Source: an uncultured Flavobacteriaceae bacterium (lineage in GTDB: Bacteria > Bacteroidota > Bacteroidia > Flavobacteriales > Flavobacteriaceae). Taken from it: DNA of 64,000 nucleotides. Below the pieces are notes generated by a model. That model ran no database searches. It worked only from the letters and a program-made list of their open reading frames with translations, and had not been told where the DNA came from. Location: positions 211,345 through 275,344 of the forward strand of contig CANMFQ010000005.1 of the NCBI GenBank assembly GCA_947497145.1, given 5' to 3'. The position numbers were made by a program, and so were the translations under genes. Below are positions 55,314 to 64,000 of the stretch, piece after piece. Numbering within the stretch: the stretch's first letter is position 1; the number at the start of each line of letters is the position of its first letter.

Positions 55314-55344
55314 TTGCATACAGCGGGTTTAATGGCTATTTTTG
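55314..55344 (+). promoter_or_regulatory. Bacteroidota promoter of the lycopene cyclase gene
   Basis: TTG (55314-55316) and TATTTTTG (55337-55344) are 20 bp apart. The -7 element covers the TTG at 55342 that the ORF track uses as start, so translation should begin further downstream. Confidence 0.6.
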
Positions 55345-55368
55345 AAAGTACAAATACCAATTACAGCA

Positions 55369-56523
55369 TTGAATGATTCTTTACATTACGACTATATCAT
55401 AATAGGTGCTGGTGCAGCCGGTTTAATGCTAGCCAATGCTATGGGTGAAGATGCTTTTTTTAAGAAAAAAAGTATTTTGCTGCTAGACAAAGATGACAAA
55501 AAAACCAACGATCGTACTTGGTGTTTTTGGGAACGTGGAGCGGGGCAATTTGAATTTCTTGTTTCTAAAAAATGGCATCATATTTTTTTCAAAGGAAAAC
55601 AATTTTCAAAACGCTATAACATCAACCCCTATTGCTATAAAATGATACGGGGTATTGATTTTTATACCGCATTATTACAAAAAATAGCCAAATACCCTAA
55701 TGTTACTTTTAAAAAAACAGCGGTAACCAATGTGGTTGATAACGGAAAAGTAGTAACCGTAACTACCGCAACACAAACATTTGTTGCTAACAAAGTTTGC
55801 AATAGCATTTTTAGCTATAAAATGGCTACCCACCAAAAAAAATACCCTGTTTTACAGCAGCATTTTTTAGGCTGGGTGGTACAAACAGAAAAAGCTGTTT
55901 TTGATGCTGATCAAGCTACCTATATGGATTTTTCTATTCCCCAGCAGGGAAATACCCGTTTTATGTATGTACTTCCTTTTTCTGCAAAAGAAGCCCTGAT
56001 AGAATATACCTTATTTTCAACAGATTTACTACCAAAAGACGCCTATGAAACTGCCCTAAAAGACTACCTCACCAATGATTTAAAATGTAGTGCATATACC
56101 ATAAAAGAAAAAGAAATAGGCAGCATACCCATGACCTGCTATGAGTTTAAAGAACACCACACCAAAAACCTTCGTTATATTGGTACAGCAGGGGGCTGGG
56201 CAAAACCCAGTACGGGCTATACTTTTGCCAGTACAGCACAAAAAATTCCTATTTTAATAGCGCATATAAAAAGTGAAAAGCCGCTAAAAAGTTTGCGTTT
56301 TAAAAATAGGTTCTGGTACTACGATTTATTATTTTTAGATGTGCTTTATAAAGATAATGCCAGCGGATACCACATCTTTGAAACCCTTTTTAAAAATCGA
56401 AGACCGCAACTCATCTTTAAATTTTTAGATGAAAAAACGCGCCTTTGGGAAGATATAAAATACATTGCTGGCTGCCCAAAAAAGCCTTTTATACAAGCAT
56501 TATTTCGAAGATTGTTTTTTTAA
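55369..56523 (+). CDS. crtY: Lycopene cyclase (CrtY-type)
   Basis: This FAD-dependent enzyme forms beta-ionone rings on lycopene. Motifs are the dinucleotide-binding IIGAGAAGLMLANAM, the cyclase hallmark NDRTWCFWE, a middle GNTRFMYVLPFSAKEALIEYTLFS, and GWAKPSTGYTFAST. No in-frame ATG precedes the FAD motif. The ORF-track start TTG 55342 lies inside a promoter -7 element, so TTG 55369 (MNDSLHYDY, 384 residues) is preferred; this choice is tentative. No other carotenoid gene is adjacent, which is unusual since crtY often sits with crtI, crtB or crtZ. Confidence 0.9.
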   Translation: MNDSLHYDYIIIGAGAAGLMLANAMGEDAFFKKKSILLLDKDDKKTNDRTWCFWERGAGQFEFLVSKKWHHIFFKGKQFSKRYNINPYCYKMIRGIDFYTALLQKIAKYPNVTFKKTAVTNVVDNGKVVTVTTATQTFVANKVCNSIFSYKMATHQKKYPVLQQHFLGWVVQTEKAVFDADQATYMDFSIPQQGNTRFMYVLPFSAKEALIEYTLFSTDLLPKDAYETALKDYLTNDLKCSAYTIKEKEIGSIPMTCYEFKEHHTKNLRYIGTAGGWAKPSTGYTFASTAQKIPILIAHIKSEKPLKSLRFKNRFWYYDLLFLDVLYKDNASGYHIFETLFKNRRPQLIFKFLDEKTRLWEDIKYIAGCPKKPFIQALFRRLFF

Positions 56524-56550
56524 GAACGGTATAAAATAACAGAGAGCAAA

Positions 56551-56632
56551 TTCCCCCTAGCCCCCAAAGGGGGAATAACAACCGTGGGAACTCCCCTTCA
56601 AAGGAAAAAAATTCCCCCTTTTAAGGGGCGAC
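56551..56632. repeat. GC-rich palindromic intergenic repeat, left copy
   Basis: The sequence CCCCCTAGCCCCC and AAAGGGGG form a stem. Further palindromic blocks follow (TCCCCTTCAAAGGAA, then CCCCCTTTTAAGGGGCGACAG). A related element (CCCCCTAGCCCC, CAAAGGGG, GTCGCCCCTTCGAAAGGGG) lies at 58724-58788. The local GC content is far above the AT-rich surroundings. This type of element is dispersed in flavobacterial genomes. Confidence 0.75.
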
Positions 56633-56779
56633 AGAGCGAGTTGACGGTACTTGCACTATTTTGCCAAGCTAAATGGCGATGAAGGTATTATGATAGTTTT
56701 CGGTAAAGCTTCTAAAGTATTTGAGGGAGCAGTGAAAAAAATTAGGAATAAACAGTTTACATGAATCCGATAGAAGCAA

Positions 56780-57307
56780 ATGAATAAATATATAAAACAT
56801 ATAATTCTATTATTACACTCTGCGTTAGTTTTTTTTCTAATTGCTTTCGCTAGTGGCTACACCCAGTATACAGATTGTGATTACTATAAACTTAAAAGAT
56901 CTTCTATAATTCCAATTTTAGTAATCGCTCTTTTAAGCTTTGTTGTTGGTTTAGTACTAAAAATGAAAAAAGATACAAGATATATTTTTGTTGTTTCAGT
57001 ATCGATGATTTCATTTTTTTTAATGTCACATTTCTATGAAAAAAAACAACTAGAATTATTAAAAAATAACGATACAATTATTACCAAAGCAATTATTTTT
57101 GATATTGAATATCAACAATTCACAACTTTTATTTTATTTAAAACTACTCCAAAAAAATTTAAAGCATCTAAAGATTTGAAAAAGAAAAGCGATCTAGGAA
57201 ACTTAAAAATTGGAGATACTATTTTAATAAAATACGCTATGGATTGTTATGCCATTTTCAATTTTCATAACCTATCACCAACCAAAGAAGAATTAGCAAA
57301 ATATTGA
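56780..57307 (+). CDS. Small membrane protein of unknown function
   Basis: This is a 175-residue protein with three hydrophobic segments (IILLLHSALVFFLIAFASG, IIPILVIALLSFVVGLVL and YIFVVSVSMISFFLMSHFY) and a soluble C-terminal domain. The domain ends in KIGDTILIKYAMDCYAIFNFHN, a strand-rich pattern often seen in small accessory membrane proteins of flavobacteria. It is very AT-rich compared with crtY before it. It is the first gene of a cassette bracketed by palindromic repeats. An immunity-type role is conceivable but unproven. Confidence 0.65.
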   Translation: MNKYIKHIILLLHSALVFFLIAFASGYTQYTDCDYYKLKRSSIIPILVIALLSFVVGLVLKMKKDTRYIFVVSVSMISFFLMSHFYEKKQLELLKNNDTIITKAIIFDIEYQQFTTFILFKTTPKKFKASKDLKKKSDLGNLKIGDTILIKYAMDCYAIFNFHNLSPTKEELAKY

Positions 57308-57344
57308 AAGAATTTTACCTACCTTAAAAATAGTGAATAGCCCC

Positions 57345-57362
57345 GCTAGTGATAGCGTCAAG
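57345..57362. repeat. Short repeat GCTAGnnnnAGCGTCA, copy 1
   Basis: GCTAGTGATAGCGTCAAG matches GCTAGTACGAGCGTCACG at 58624-58641 and GCTAGGGCAAGCGTCACG at 58808-58825. It overlaps the GTG start of the next ORF. Confidence 0.65.
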
Positions 57363-57543
57363 AATAAAAAAACAATACCGAAAGCTATTTCAAAAAGAAA
57401 GTAAAGCTCAGGAACTAATGGATTACATGGGACAGACAAGGTTTATTGAGAAATTTCAAGTAGACAATATTGATGATTTTTTAACTGTAGTAGTTCCCAA
57501 TCTTAATAATACTAGGCTTTATGGCTTTATAAAAGTAAAATAA
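57349..57543 (+). CDS. Small protein of unknown function (64 aa), possibly a truncated C-terminus
   Basis: The start is GTG inside a dispersed repeat, 15 bp after an in-frame stop. The sequence (KKQYRKLFQKESKAQELMDY, then FIEKFQVDNIDDFLTVVVPNLNNTRLYGFIKVK) has no recognised domain. Its stop overlaps the next ATG (TAATG), so it is translationally coupled to the 361-residue gene, which supports it being expressed. Its size and abrupt start fit the remnant tail of a longer protein, such as a polymorphic toxin tip joined to an immunity gene (inference). Confidence 0.5.
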   Translation: MIASRIKKQYRKLFQKESKAQELMDYMGQTRFIEKFQVDNIDDFLTVVVPNLNNTRLYGFIKVK

Positions 57544-58628
57544 TGTACAAACCACTAGAAAAAATAAATAAAATACAGGGATATAATTTAGAAGTTGAAG
57601 ACCTTTTTTTTCAGGTTAATAAGGAGGATAAGTTTAAAGTTTTCAATAAAAAATACTCAAGTCAAATTGATAAAGAAGTTTTTGGTAATCCCTTTTATTG
57701 GAATGATTATTTAATTTTTTCAAATGTAAATAAATATAAAAGTTCGTTTTGGCTTGAAGGTAAAGAAATCTTTAGGAAAGATTTTCATGCACGTTGTCAA
57801 ATAGGACCTTATTTGATTTCCACTTACAAAAAAGAGCGAAAGAAATACATACAATTTTTAAATAAAGAACTAAAAGTAGTTTTTGAGAAAGAATTTAGAT
57901 CTGGGATTTACTATAGCAACAAAAACTTGCACGTATGTGCTGAAGTTGCATTAGCTAATAAAATCAATGTTTTCCTTGGCTCCGATACTATTAAATTTTA
58001 CACAATAGACATTACCAATCAACAGTGGTCTAATTTAGAAGGAGAAAAGTTTGACGGAGAAGTTTTTCAAATTATAGGTAAATGGAATAATGAGCTTTTG
58101 GTATCTATAGGACGGTTTATACTTGTTTCTTATGACTTAGAAACAGGGAAAGAGCTTTGGAGGATAGATGATTTTATTCAAGAAATATCATCAAATCTAA
58201 TCATTGAATCAAAAAAACGGAAAAGTATTAAATGGCTTCTTGCAGAAGAGGAGAGTAAGGCTTATTTATTGGTTCTAAATTATTTATTCGTGTTAGATTT
58301 AAATCAAAAGAAATCTCAACTCATAAAGGATTATAATAAATTAGCAGAAAAAGAATGGTACTTTGCTAATAGCAGGTTATATGATGAATATATCACTTTT
58401 TCGGGTGCAAATACATTAGGTAAGTTTCCAATGGTCGCAGGTGTAATTGATAGAAACACAAAAGAAATACTTTGGACTACTAAAAGTGAGCCAGGTATTT
58501 ATTTTGAAGAAGCTCCACAAATTAAAGAGGATAAACTGTACATTCTAGATAGTTCTAAAACACTCCATATCTTTGAAAAAGAAACTTTCCCAGCTGGCGC
58601 AAGTAAAAACATTAGTGCGAAAAGCTAG
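57543..58628 (+). CDS. PQQ/WD40-like beta-propeller protein
   Basis: This 361-residue protein has no signal peptide. Repeats of the type FILVSYDLETGKELWRIDD (about 196-214), AGVIDRNTKEILWTTKSEPG (about 299-318) and LYILDSSKTLHIFEKETF (about 333-350) show the blades of a PQQ-like beta-propeller. No catalytic residues can be recognised. It is coupled to the 64-residue ORF (TAATG) and ends two bases into a palindromic repeat. It may be a cytoplasmic binding or immunity protein. It is AT-rich relative to the core genes. Confidence 0.75.
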   Translation: MYKPLEKINKIQGYNLEVEDLFFQVNKEDKFKVFNKKYSSQIDKEVFGNPFYWNDYLIFSNVNKYKSSFWLEGKEIFRKDFHARCQIGPYLISTYKKERKKYIQFLNKELKVVFEKEFRSGIYYSNKNLHVCAEVALANKINVFLGSDTIKFYTIDITNQQWSNLEGEKFDGEVFQIIGKWNNELLVSIGRFILVSYDLETGKELWRIDDFIQEISSNLIIESKKRKSIKWLLAEEESKAYLLVLNYLFVLDLNQKKSQLIKDYNKLAEKEWYFANSRLYDEYITFSGANTLGKFPMVAGVIDRNTKEILWTTKSEPGIYFEEAPQIKEDKLYILDSSKTLHIFEKETFPAGASKNISAKS

Positions 58629-58648
58629 TACGAGCGTCACGCTAGTAC
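58624..58648. repeat. Palindromic short repeat, copy 2
   Basis: GTACGAGCGT and ACGCTAGTAC (58628-58648) form a stem with one mismatch around a single C. It begins in the stop codon of the propeller gene and shares GCTAGnnnnAGCGTCACG with copies at 57345 and 58808. Confidence 0.7.
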
Positions 58649-58723
58649 CTGGGTAATAACGAATATTGATTGTTAAAGGGAAAAAGATAAATGAGCAAGA
58701 AAATAAAAATGAGGCGTAGCACA

Positions 58724-58788
58724 TCCCCCTAGCCCCTTCAAAGGGGAAATTTTTACTCTTGTTGTCGCCCCTTCGAAAGGGGATTTCC
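58724..58788. repeat. GC-rich palindromic intergenic repeat, right copy
   Basis: CCCCCTAGCCCCTTCAAAGGGG and CGCCCCTTCGAAAGGGGAT each fold back on themselves. The GTCGCCCC part is inverted relative to GGGGCGAC in the left copy (56551-56632), while the CCCCCTAGCCCC part has the same direction. Confidence 0.75.
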
Positions 58789-58807
58789 ACTCCTGCTGTT
58801 ATCCCGC

Positions 58808-58825
58808 GCTAGGGCAAGCGTCACG
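58808..58825. repeat. Short repeat GCTAGnnnnAGCGTCA, copy 3
   Basis: GCTAGGGCAAGCGTCACG matches copies at 57345 and 58624. Its inner AAGCGT/ACGTTT can pair with one G-U. Confidence 0.65.
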
Positions 58826-59273
58826 TTTGTGCCGTTGAACAAATTAAAGTTTATCCATTTCATAACTATATAATAACGCTATTTTACTTGTTTTTTTCTT
58901 ACTTTTATTATCACGAGTAGGGTGCTCGTACTAACGAGGGTCACTATAAAGATTACCTAAAGAAGAATCTACTATCCGCTATCCAAATCCTTTGTTTATA
59001 AAGATTTATTTCGAGAGATTATAACCTAATAACGCTTGCAATATTAAAAACATTAGCGAGTTAGGGAGAGGTGCGTCTAATTTCTAAAATAATGCAATTT
59101 TGGTCGAAAAATTAAAAAATGCCATATTAATTCTCTAAAAATAAACAGAAAATTTTCATAATCCATACTCACTATCTGTGCTTGATAATTTGAAAATGAA
59201 CATTCCTAAATTTATACAAGCAATGAATAATGCGGATTAATGAGAGTCTAGTGTGTGTTTCTACGCTGCATTA

Positions 59274-59301
59274 AAAACGGGGTTAAAATTGACCCCGTTT
59301 T
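59274..59301 (-). terminator. Intrinsic terminator of the large surface-protein gene
   Basis: AAAACGGGGT (59274-59283) pairs with ACCCCGTTTT (59292-59301). On the minus strand the stem ends in a T-run, 20 bp after the stop of the gene at 59321. Confidence 0.85.
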
Positions 59302-59320
59302 ATTAGTTTGTAAATTGGTT

Positions 59321-62300
59321 TTAGTGTTTTATGGCCAACTGTTTTTGATACTGCAAACCATTCTCATCTAATGTTTTTAAAAAATAGATTCCGTTAGAGA
59401 GCATGCTGACATTAATATGAAAAGTACCGTCAGTATCGGCATTATTTGAGGGCACCGAAAGCACAACTCTTCCATAGACATCATAGATCATAAGGTTATT
59501 TACTATTTTTTTACCAGTGTCTGATTTAAAGCTTACCTGAACAATATCTGCCGCAGGATTTGGTGATAATTTTAAAGTGCTGGTCAACTTTGATGTTGAG
59601 CCCGCATTTGTTGTAATTGATAGGCGAGGAAATTTTAAGGATTCATCTGAGGCAAAAGCCACATCGTTACCATTACTTTGCTTAACAATCAAAGTCAATT
59701 CTCCGCCGGTAGACAAGTTGGTAACATCTAAATTCCAAATTTTTGTTTGTCCCAAGGCATGGATACCGCTTATTGATGCTAGTGCATTGTTAACAGCAAC
59801 CGGTTTATTACTTCCATCAAGTCCTGTCTCTGTCCAATTAGAAGTATTACCTAAAAAGACTTCAATTGTACCATAACCTGGATCACTTGTTACATACATT
59901 TCTAATCGAGCATGTGTAATGACACCCGTAAAATCTTTTGTATCAAACTTGAGGTAGGTTTCTCGTTTGCCTTTTTCCACTCGGAGAATTGGTCCTAAGG
60001 GTTGCGGATTATCCATTCCTTCAATATAAGTTGCGGCAATAAGATTGGCATCATTTTCTGGTGGTATGTTACAATCTGGAGCTAACCCTCCATCACTAAT
60101 AATCCACCCAAAATCACCAATAAGTTTTAATCTAGCATCTTTACCAATACAGTATTGGCTATTTCCTGCATTAAATGTAACTCCATTTTGTAAATTTTGA
60201 CCGCTCCACCCCTGCAACAAGCTATCGTAATTGGCAATAGACAAATTGGTTCTACTCAGCATATGTTCCATATCAACAACATTATTAACTTTCCAATTTC
60301 CTATATCTTGATTAAAATTTATGGCTCCATTTAGCATAAAGTCCATGTGAGTTACATTGTCTACATCCCAACCGCTAATATCTTGGTTAAAGGAATCAGC
60401 AGCTTGGAACATAGCTCCCATAGAGGTCACCTTACTTACATCCCATTGACTAATGTTTTGATTAAATGATCTTGCAAAGGTAAACATGCCTGCCATACTT
60501 TCTACATTTCCTACGTCCCAGCTGCTAATATCCTGGTTGAAAGAGGTATTGCCACCAAACATTTGATCCATAAACTTTACCTTACTAACATCCCAGTCAC
60601 CTATATCTTGATTAAAATCGGTGCCACGAAACATCTCTCGCATATTAGTAACGTTAGAAACGTCCCATGTATAAATTTCACTGGAGTTAAAATTAGAAAA
60701 GGCGAACAACTCACTCATGTTAGTTACATTTGAAACATCCCAATCATTAAAAATAGAACCTGTAATACTATCGCAATCTCTAAACATACCAGCCATAGAA
60801 GATACCCTTGATAGGTTTGGTGCGTCATATGCCACAACTTTTAGGTTTTTACAGCCTGCAAAAGCATATTCCATGGAACTCCATTTAATGTCGCCCCATT
60901 GTTGTATTTGAAGAAGCTTTTCAGCATCAGCATATCCATCCATAATCATCCTCGGAAAGACACCTCCGATGGAAACGGTATAGGTACCCTCTACAGAATA
61001 GGTATGGGTTATGTCTCCAATAACATTGGTATCACTATTACCATCACCCCAGTCAACGTTATAATTGTACGTTTCGCCAGCAAAGGTAGAAACCTTAATT
61101 TGATTGTCATTTGAAAACCCTGGATTATCAGTTTTCCATACGGTTATGAATGGCAATGAGGGTTCTGTTATTCCATTGGTGGTAATCATTAATTTTGGAG
61201 CCTTTGCGGTTTCATCTGAAGCAAAAGCAACATCATTACCATTTCGGTGTTTTACAATTAGGGTTAAATGTCCATCCACAGGAAGCATTTCTGATGACAA
61301 AACCCAAACTACAGTTTGCCCTAAAGCAAAAGTACCGTTTACAGAAGCAAGTGCATCGCCAGTTGCTATTGGTTTGTTGCTTCCCGTAAGCCCTGTTTCT
61401 GTCCAATTAGAATGGTTTCCTAGAAAAACATCTACGGTGCCTTGGCCAGGGTCTTCAGAGACTACCATTTCTAATCTAACCTTGGTAATGGCACCATTTA
61501 GTTCGCTCAAATCAAACTTCAAATAGGTTTCTCTATTGCCTTCTTCTACCCTTAATATCTGACCTTTAGGGCTTGGGTTGCTTGAACCTTCAAGATAGGT
61601 TGCTGTCAATAAATCTGCTTCAAAATCCATAGATGAGCCACAGAAAGTCAATGCTGTTCCATAATCAAGGCAGTTTCCTGTGTTTCCAGAAATACTTACC
61701 GAACCATTAACAATAGATTCAGCTTTACATACTGCTTCTATGGCACAATTTGATAATTTTCCATTATCAACAATTACTAAATCTCCCCATATTTTATCTA
61801 TGTTGGAGATGCCAGTGATATCTGTTAAATTAGTGTTGTCGATTATTTTGACGTTACCAAAAGTTTCAGCGACTAAAGAGAGCCCATTTAAATTAGAGAG
61901 AACTGTATTTGATTTAATGTCAAAACCTAGACCAACATAAGACACATTAGAAAGACCGTCTATATTTTCAAGCGCAGGATTAGATGTTATATTTAAGAAA
62001 TTATCAATATATTGAATGGATGATAAGCCGTCTAAATTGGTTAACGAAGCATTGTTTTTGATAATCAAGTCGTCTTGAATTGATGTTAGAGAAGAGAAAC
62101 CATTTAAATTGGTTAATGATGCATTGTTTTCAATAATTATATTACCAATACTACCATTAAAACCTGAACCAAGTAAACTAAGACCGTTTACATCTGACAA
62201 ATTAGAGTTATTTGAAAGAACAATTTTAGACGCATCAGTTAATGCTGACAACCCATCCAAATTGGTTATTTTCGTATTTTTTATTTCTATTTCTCCACCC

Positions 62301-63610
62301 AATCTAGTCAATGAATTTAAACCATCTAAGTTTGTAATTTCACTGCCTTCAATTAATATGCCGCTTGCAAATCTACAATTGACTGCGTCATGAATTGTTG
62401 CGAAATCATCAATTTGCGCTTGAGTGTTTAATACCAACTTTTCTGTTGGACATTCTTTGCATGATTCGCTTTTTCCACCATCAGTAATTGACCAATTATA
62501 AAAACTGACAAAAAGTTGTCGTGCTGCTTCACCTTGGCAGAATTGACTTTCACCTCCATTAAACGTTACTCCATGCTGCAGGTTTTGGTTTGACCAACCT
62601 AATAAAATAGAATCATAAATTTGAGATGAAAGGGTAACACCAGCAAAAATATTTGTCATGTCAGCAGTATTGCTTACATCCCATCCAGATAAATCTTGAT
62701 TAAAGGTAGTGTTATTAAACATTCCTGATAAATCAGATACCGTAGAAATATCCCAATTTTCAATACCAGGAATAGTTAACGGACTAGAATCTACATTAAA
62801 AAACATTCTACGTAAACTTTGTAAGTTTGATAGAATAGGCTCATCAGTTGCTTTTACCATTAATTCTTTGCAACCTGCAAATGCTGAATCCATAGAGGTC
62901 CAAGAAATTTCGCCCCACTGGTCTATACTTAACAACTTATTTTCATCACCAACTATCTCATTAACTTCAGTATTATTAAAATATATTCTTGGAAAGTCTC
63001 CTGAAATAGAAACCCTATAAGTTCCGGAAGTGGCATAGGTGTGAGTTATGTTTCCCGTTATTCCCGAATTGGAACTGCCGTCTCCCCAATTTACTTTGTA
63101 GTTGTAGGTTTCACCTAAATAGGTTGGTATTGTTATTTGGTTATCATTTGATGTTCCGATATTATCTGTTTTCCAAGTGGTAATAAACGAGCGCTGTACG
63201 GGCTCATTCACAACATTAAAATTAATAGTATAATCTTGGCCAATCACTCCATTCTCCGAATAAGGCGTGGCCGTTATATTATATGAGCCGACAGGAAATT
63301 CTTGTCCTCTGTAATTGCCCGCAGGGAAGTCTCCATATAATGCAAAAGGTGCCACGTTTTCAGTACTAGAATGAGACAAGGAACCCGAAAGCTGAAAACC
63401 TATGCTCTTCGTTACAATAGAACCATTTGCTCTAATATTGAATGCTATTCCCTCATAATCTTTTAAGTTTATATTAAATCCACTAGTGAGTTCTAAGATA
63501 TCTTCATTGGTAGATGCGTTTACCAAAATAAGACTTTGTACCTCGGGTGATTGAGCTATAAGATTTGTGTAAACAAAGATAAATAATAATTGAAGTAGTA
63601 TTTTTTTCAT
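59321..63610 (-). CDS. Large T9SS-secreted modular surface protein (BspA-like, LRR-like and DNRLRE modules)
   Basis: This is a 1429-residue exported protein with a signal peptide (ILLQLLFIFVYTNLIAQ). It has a PKD-like domain (about 138-225, NYKVNWGDGSSN) and BspA/DUF285 repeats (about 230-385, FNQDLSGWDVSN). A receptor-L/LRR-like stretch follows (about 390-655, ITNLDGLNSLTRLGG-type units), then a DNRLRE domain (about 663-815). A second PKD-like domain (about 820-905), BspA repeats (about 910-1165) and DNRLRE domain (about 1187-1340) come next. The C-terminal T9SS sorting domain (about 1343-1429) opens LKLSPNPAADIVQVSF. The PKD-BspA-DNRLRE block is therefore duplicated. It is probably an adhesin or glycan-binding surface protein. 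Confidence 0.92.
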   Translation of the reverse strand: MKKILLQLLFIFVYTNLIAQSPEVQSLILVNASTNEDILELTSGFNINLKDYEGIAFNIRANGSIVTKSIGFQLSGSLSHSSTENVAPFALYGDFPAGNYRGQEFPVGSYNITATPYSENGVIGQDYTINFNVVNEPVQRSFITTWKTDNIGTSNDNQITIPTYLGETYNYKVNWGDGSSNSGITGNITHTYATSGTYRVSISGDFPRIYFNNTEVNEIVGDENKLLSIDQWGEISWTSMDSAFAGCKELMVKATDEPILSNLQSLRRMFFNVDSSPLTIPGIENWDISTVSDLSGMFNNTTFNQDLSGWDVSNTADMTNIFAGVTLSSQIYDSILLGWSNQNLQHGVTFNGGESQFCQGEAARQLFVSFYNWSITDGGKSESCKECPTEKLVLNTQAQIDDFATIHDAVNCRFASGILIEGSEITNLDGLNSLTRLGGEIEIKNTKITNLDGLSALTDASKIVLSNNSNLSDVNGLSLLGSGFNGSIGNIIIENNASLTNLNGFSSLTSIQDDLIIKNNASLTNLDGLSSIQYIDNFLNITSNPALENIDGLSNVSYVGLGFDIKSNTVLSNLNGLSLVAETFGNVKIIDNTNLTDITGISNIDKIWGDLVIVDNGKLSNCAIEAVCKAESIVNGSVSISGNTGNCLDYGTALTFCGSSMDFEADLLTATYLEGSSNPSPKGQILRVEEGNRETYLKFDLSELNGAITKVRLEMVVSEDPGQGTVDVFLGNHSNWTETGLTGSNKPIATGDALASVNGTFALGQTVVWVLSSEMLPVDGHLTLIVKHRNGNDVAFASDETAKAPKLMITTNGITEPSLPFITVWKTDNPGFSNDNQIKVSTFAGETYNYNVDWGDGNSDTNVIGDITHTYSVEGTYTVSIGGVFPRMIMDGYADAEKLLQIQQWGDIKWSSMEYAFAGCKNLKVVAYDAPNLSRVSSMAGMFRDCDSITGSIFNDWDVSNVTNMSELFAFSNFNSSEIYTWDVSNVTNMREMFRGTDFNQDIGDWDVSKVKFMDQMFGGNTSFNQDISSWDVGNVESMAGMFTFARSFNQNISQWDVSKVTSMGAMFQAADSFNQDISGWDVDNVTHMDFMLNGAINFNQDIGNWKVNNVVDMEHMLSRTNLSIANYDSLLQGWSGQNLQNGVTFNAGNSQYCIGKDARLKLIGDFGWIISDGGLAPDCNIPPENDANLIAATYIEGMDNPQPLGPILRVEKGKRETYLKFDTKDFTGVITHARLEMYVTSDPGYGTIEVFLGNTSNWTETGLDGSNKPVAVNNALASISGIHALGQTKIWNLDVTNLSTGGELTLIVKQSNGNDVAFASDESLKFPRLSITTNAGSTSKLTSTLKLSPNPAADIVQVSFKSDTGKKIVNNLMIYDVYGRVVLSVPSNNADTDGTFHINVSMLSNGIYFLKTLDENGLQYQKQLAIKH

Positions 63611-64000
63611 AGTGTTTTTTGGTTTATTCTCTTCATTTAACGTACTACAGTAAAATAAAAGAATATTGGTTGTTGTTAAAATAATGTTTGTTATGGCCCT
63701 ACTAAAAAATCAGAAAGAAGCATTACATATAAAGTTAATATTAAAATTAACACTTTGCAAGACTAACATCAAATTCTAGACAAAGAACTGAATTAAAGGA
63801 CGATGTGGAGGGTGATTAACTTAAATTATGTTCCGAATACCGAACTACTATAATTATTAAATGACATTTTTTGTAGTCAATACACAACATATATATAATC
63901 ATAAGTTATAAACAATTGAAAATACATAATTTTGTTATTACCAGTACCACAGATCAAGTATCTTATGTAAGTTATAAAAATAACAAGGTTATGCTTTATA
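63611..64000. other. 390-bp region at the right edge without a gene
   Basis: It is upstream of the large surface-protein gene on the minus strand and very AT-rich. No TAnnTTTG promoter, repeat or gene start was recognised, and no ORF reaches the edge with coding character. Confidence 0.4.

Follow-up and report, generated by a model that had tools for sequence, protein, structure and literature searches.

The locus discussed herein, a three-gene cassette next to the lycopene cyclase gene crtY of an uncultured Flavobacteriaceae bacterium, resembles three systems that are already described. TANFOR-class toxins are large secreted proteins of Bacteroidota that combine a conserved N terminus with a variable C-terminal toxin. 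They carry a PD-(D/E)xK-type (D/E)xK motif, are directly followed by an immunity gene and have Fn3 and type IX secretion system (T9SS) proteins nearby (PMC7073777). For BaCT, a toxin of this class, the (D/E)xK motif is needed for toxicity (PMC7073777). The AID and rAID islands of Bacteroidales contain toxin-less immunity genes in variable islands or arrays that are acquired horizontally (PMC10470768, PMC12247911). Finally, repetitive extragenic palindromes (REPs) are paired with TnpA-REP/RAYT proteins (PMC6006769; for REPINs, PMC3116915); RAYT subclass 2.6 occurs mostly in Bacteroidetes and is flanked by atypical secondary structures (PMC6006769). The stretch of DNA analyzed, hereafter the window, comprises 64,000 nucleotides (contig C5:211345-275344); the genome from which it comes measures 5.1 Mb and is split into 198 contigs. 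T9SS sorting tails place the DNA in the Bacteroidota. The cassette can be read with good confidence as an orphan-immunity cassette of horizontal origin: a hot spot that lies between crtY and the gene of a polyprenyl synthetase holds two probable immunity genes and the stub of a decapitated toxin. This reading builds on homologies, gene order, variable content, breakpoints, and the loss of the (D/E)xK region, which were observed directly.

Relatives of the cassette cargo occupy just this position behind secreted toxins, and the start of one immunity candidate, a β-propeller, overlaps the stop of the stub, as expected for an immunity gene directly downstream. Unlike these systems, the cassette lacks a carrier (none of its open reading frames [ORFs] has an N-terminal TANFOR domain) and holds a toxin tail only. 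Furthermore, the text of PMC7073777 names no propeller as an immunity protein. As in AID/rAID islands, immunity genes stand without an intact cognate toxin and the content varies between related species; unlike there, the ORFs between crtY and the end of the contig include no tyrosine recombinase gene, the exchange sites are C-rich palindromes, and toxin stubs are retained. Moreover, AID/rAID islands concern type VI effectors, whereas the cassette concerns secreted polymorphic toxins. An integrase, as in integron cassettes, is likewise not present among the ORFs of the interval. The likeness to REP/RAYT systems lies in a short palindromic repeat, the joint motif, which occurs near Y1_Tnp genes in L148, a locus of another genus. 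In this genome, however, the abundant palindrome is tied to DUF559 and not to a HUH transposase, and the joint motif is rare. Orphan immunity has been described for gut Bacteroidales exposed to the type VI system; the present locus makes the case for secreted polymorphic toxins in other Bacteroidota. New, as far as the literature searched shows, are an exchange of such cargo within palindromic borders, a recurring toxin stub, a candidate immunity family made up of propellers, and the DUF559–palindrome association.

The cassette and its relatives in toxin loci

The features of the cassette, all on the + strand, are as follows.
56551-56640, +: left GC-rich palindromic element of a 52-copy family; own-genome matches at 89-96% identity; matches the leader of the DUF559-type ORFs on contig C21 up to GGGGCGACAGAGCGA
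56780-57307, +: 175-residue membrane protein, probable immunity protein; no family
57345-57360, +: joint motif copy 1; the stretch homologous to the L126 module begins at 57364
57349-57543, +: 64-residue ORF, stub from the C-terminal end of a polymorphic toxin domain; (D/E)xK motif absent; 81% nucleotide identity to the end of the L126 frame
57543-58628, +: 361-residue BamB/PQQ-like β-propeller, probable immunity protein; start overlaps the stub stop (TAATG); 76% identity in L126
58624-58649, +: joint motif copy 2, REP-like palindrome GCTAGTACGAGCGTCACGCTAGTACC; overlaps the propeller stop
58724-58788, +: right GC-rich palindromic element, from own-genome matches and the core count
58808-58833, +: joint motif copy 3, from the motif counts

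An earlier note on this DNA described an AT-rich three-gene cassette between two related GC-rich palindromes, which is confirmed: the window's ORF listing contains the three ORFs, both elements are present, and the coding block has a GC content of 0.28 versus 0.358 for the whole window, a value reached by only one of 622 sampled stretches of equal length. The note found no known function for the three proteins. This stands for the family scan, which assigns none of them to a known family, whereas the gene neighborhoods of their relatives point to toxins.

The propeller is the most informative of the three. Its profile matches quinoproteins and BamB in the PDB (best E 7e-6). A search with the single protein found no relatives in 14 congeners; a relative is present on L126, a Saprospiraceae contig (76% identity). 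Among 400 genomes of the family, 21 gave a match to the propeller family profile, in some cases a remote one. Twenty-one propeller loci were inspected; in 17 of them, no more than 5 bp lie between the stop of an upstream open frame and the start of the propeller. Long toxin frames account for seven of the 17—L054 (1947 residues), L138 (1957), L141 (1308), L055, L057, L139, and L126—and all seven contain (D/E)xK[SN][YW] 105-118 residues before their end. The carriers in L054, L138, L141, L147, and L148 share N-terminal regions of 470-980 residues at 37-42% identity (90% between L147 and L148) and differ in their C termini; a common N terminus with a divergent C terminus is the signature of polymorphic toxins. 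The source genome itself encodes homologs of the carriers' neighbor proteins (34-70% identity) on contigs C37 and C39. A search of 15 congeners with the TANFOR model gave no match, with controls equally silent. The propeller is hence probably a candidate immunity protein of a secreted polymorphic toxin, as judged from its genomic company.

The sister module on L126, which belongs to another family, shows what the 64-residue ORF derives from. Window positions 57364-58576 correspond to L126 1994-3215 at 81% nucleotide identity across stub and propeller; the homology begins just past joint motif copy 1 and stops short of copy 2. On L126, the stretch matching the stub is the tail of a toxin frame that spans 222 codons and contains the (D/E)xK motif, the propeller starts at the stop of this frame, and a toxin-deaminase protein lies upstream (E 1.5e-11). 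Compared with single toxin tails, the stub is not convincing (p 0.03-0.21); the assignment is settled by L126 together with a profile built from the C-terminal 75 residues of six toxins, L126 left out, against which the ORF scores 19.3 bits (best of 500 shuffles, 11.5). The stub of L056b also beats its shuffles with this profile. Both ends of L126 (1-180, 3547-4221) are pieces of a PD-(D/E)XK transposase-family gene (PF12784).

With 64 residues, the stub is shorter than the distance of the motif from the end of the intact toxins. Eight propellers, that of the window included, are preceded by frames of only 53-71 codons, too short for the (D/E)xK region. By its sequence, the ORF is thus a decapitated toxin, and the locus holds no toxin/immunity pair in the active sense. 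A working orphan pair, in which a small toxin is still active and retained alongside its immunity protein, would fit the open stub frame, its GTG start, and its stop overlapping the propeller start. It is nevertheless highly improbable, since the stub lacks the region with the (D/E)xK motif, which lies 105-118 residues from the end of its intact relatives; BaCT requires this motif for toxicity (PMC7073777). The exchangeable toxin/immunity cargo proposed by the earlier note is therefore supported with corrections: its relatives are linked to toxins and it is exchangeable, as described below, but of the toxin no more than a stub is present.

For the membrane protein, a role as a second immunity protein is probable, because a relative at 29% identity overlaps the stop codon of a toxin carrier of 1654 residues in L147. 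Closer relatives (57% and 53%) are found in small-ORF islands of two other genera. In these islands (L145, L146), the small ORFs are parted by similar intergenic sequences, reminiscent of gene-cassette arrays. The locus thereby points to two candidate immunity families in which no Pfam domain passes the cut-off, the BamB-like propeller and the small membrane protein.

The interval between crtY and the polyprenyl synthetase gene

The cassette is flanked by the following features.
55342-56523, +: crtY (lycopene cyclase), bounding the variable interval on the left; PF05834, E 9e-56; 98% identical in G010
59321-63610, -: 1429-residue surface protein, right neighbor; PKD and DUF285 repeats and a T9SS sorting tail; probably belongs to a longer variable island
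63928-64000, +: start of a copy of a 194-residue gene, read from the sequence against translations; the contig end falls within the gene, and other copies lie on contigs C37 and C39

The content of this interval varies between relatives, and identical content in all of them was not found. In four congeners (L038, L040, L044, L045) the site is empty, crtY and the convergent polyprenyl synthetase gene overlapping at their stops; two further congeners have a single small gene in between. In G010, the nearest relative, the interval holds different cargo, a toxin-fragment/immunity pair consisting of a DUF559-led PD-(D/E)xK-like ORF followed by a 231-residue protein and then a palindrome. The first ~38 residues of this ORF are those of a DUF559 protein, and it continues as a PD-(D/E)xK-like fragment. 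The 1429-residue surface protein is not beside crtY in G010.

Collinearity with G010 on the crtY side stops within the palindrome (window 56572 = L037 5933). The polyprenyl synthetase side is located on contig C37 in the source genome, where collinearity also stops at a palindrome (L011 1985 = L037 7218; 92% identity beyond). Hence, both limits of the variable region coincide with palindromes. Since the contig ends within the 194-residue gene that is also present on C37 and C39, the crtY interval is probably a longer island broken by the assembly. An assembly artifact as the origin of the cassette itself was considered and is unlikely, because both the left flank and the joints recur at the G010 locus.

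Several points weigh against the orphan-immunity reading. The direct relatives of the membrane protein are mostly found in orphan settings. Most other short stubs score no better than their shuffles with the tail profile, so they are assigned by their position and by common endings, for example NILKLTQ. The TANFOR model TIGR02542 matches L054 at E 7e-4, which falls well short of the curated cut-off, and gives no match for L138, L141, and L147. The AlphaFold model of the propeller, from two input sequences, is poor (pLDDT 50), so its Foldseek matches to BamB and designed propellers (TM about 0.3) lend weak support. In addition, the window side of the island terminates at the contig break.

A more skeptical explanation takes the cassette as decaying debris, genes dropped at a repeat-rich spot and no longer expressed or useful. 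The truncated toxin and the joints within coding sequence are in line with it, as is the toxin fragment of G010, a DUF559-fusion copy that has VAK where the C21 copies have DAK. Both immunity-like genes, however, are intact and of full length although the toxin is lost, and the layout of a stub with an intact propeller recurs on C21, in G010, and in other genera. Because the immunity gene repeatedly survives next to the lost toxin, decay is an improbable account, if less so than the active pair. The orphan-immunity reading, in turn, gives this layout a sense: a toxin stub plus an intact immunity gene may represent a recurring form of safe capture.

From these observations we infer how the cassette might act. 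The propeller would bind and neutralize an incoming PD-(D/E)xK-like toxin secreted by related bacteria, and membrane protein and propeller would together protect the host from the secreted polymorphic toxins of its neighbors. The stub would not be toxic; it may be a by-product of capture or may maintain the translational coupling of the immunity gene.

Palindromic repeats, DUF559, and the proposed route of exchange

Two repeat families mark the exchange sites. The first is the GC-rich palindrome: CCCCCTAGCCCC occurs exactly twice in the window (56553, 58725), with 0.08 occurrences expected when one mismatch is allowed, and its core CCCCCTARCCCC has 52 copies in the genome (reversed-pattern control, 0). 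A random spread of the repeats, named by the earlier note as speaking against its idea, applies insofar as this family is dispersed; yet 35 of the 52 cores are found at probable toxin/immunity loci (C21, C39, C37, C30, and the cassette locus). Four more, on C17, adjoin an unannotated cluster of small ORFs, and 13 are elsewhere. Fifteen cores form an array on C21 beside tRNA-Val. Herein, palindrome blocks alternate with DUF559-led PD-(D/E)xK-like ORFs, stubs, 230-residue proteins, and three more propellers, and the palindrome copies continue into the start of the DUF559-type ORFs. On C37 and C39 the palindromes surround the homologs of the carriers' neighbor proteins, and those on C30 adjoin RHS-repeat proteins. 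At L018 1279-6020 (C30), a palindrome core is located between two tandem units, each of which consists of an RHS-repeat protein and a small ORF behind it.

The second family is the joint motif. GCTAGnnnnAGCGTCA is present three times in the window (57345, 58624, 58808; 0.06 expected with one mismatch allowed), at the joints where the earlier note had placed it, and these are the only copies in the genome (control, 0). Five copies lie near Y1_Tnp (PF01797) genes, which are IS200-like (RAYT-type), in L148, and one copy overlaps the end of the L055 propeller gene. Its right half is found at the right edge of the G010 cargo, one of five matches in 15 genomes. Joint motif and GC-rich palindrome were tried as a single family, which was rejected; the former is a separate family because AGCGTCAC is absent from the palindrome-rich L009, L010, and L014. 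Rfam has no match across window positions 56000-59500. A fusion much like those of DUF559 is found between two propeller genes at L056 10169-10486, where the first part of a RAYT-like protein (MSRKYKFYNKEQPKQ) leads into a small membrane protein.

In the preferred account, recombination between copies of the dispersed bracketing palindrome would swap the cargo, and the REP-like joint motif would mark the ends of the captured stub–propeller module. The palindromic repeats to which the exchange sites are tied include one family with a strong association to DUF559, an uncharacterized nuclease family. In the genus, C-rich hairpins occur within 300 bp of all 16 full-length DUF559 loci examined (L071-L079, L083-L086, L091, L092, L094), on both sides in 13 of them, and their density is 4.9 per kb at these loci versus 0.03 per kb in control loci.

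This association, the match of the bracketing element to the DUF559 leader, and the joint motif beside Y1_Tnp genes in L148 would also suit a transposing unit, in which the palindromes are element ends moved in trans by a DUF559-type or RAYT-type enzyme and the cargo travels by transposition instead of homologous recombination. On the other hand, neither type of gene is present within the cassette, the two palindromic elements are not mirror-image ends, and a collinearity stop inside the palindrome fits recombination between dispersed copies equally well, which leaves transposition an unlikely route, though less remote than decay or the active pair. Active mobilization by a DUF559 enzyme as such is possible. 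Slightly better placed than the transposing unit, and held only tentatively, is a wider proposal: C-rich palindromes and the Vsr-like DUF559 nuclease might constitute a REP/RAYT-like mobile system in this genus, by which immunity genes are captured and swapped. Toxin genes would then recombine at a preferred site, which would remove the catalytic core and leave a stub of ~53-71 codons plus the intact immunity gene, amounting to a built-in disarming. No paper linking DUF559 with REP palindromes was found among those naming DUF559, as judged by their titles or abstracts.

The palindrome sequences at DUF559 genes vary between genomes, and their arrangement resembles the palindrome–nuclease pairing of the REP/RAYT type. 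In-frame fusions of the first ~38 DUF559 residues with a PD-(D/E)xK-like fragment are found at L009 9815-10930 and 12790-13900 and at L037 6002-6421, each fusion ORF being followed by a conserved 230-residue protein. A second DUF559 domain of the source genome (L071, G000:C5:161771-162118) is located in an open frame of 1106 codons, with a palindrome core ~20 bp from the frame end.
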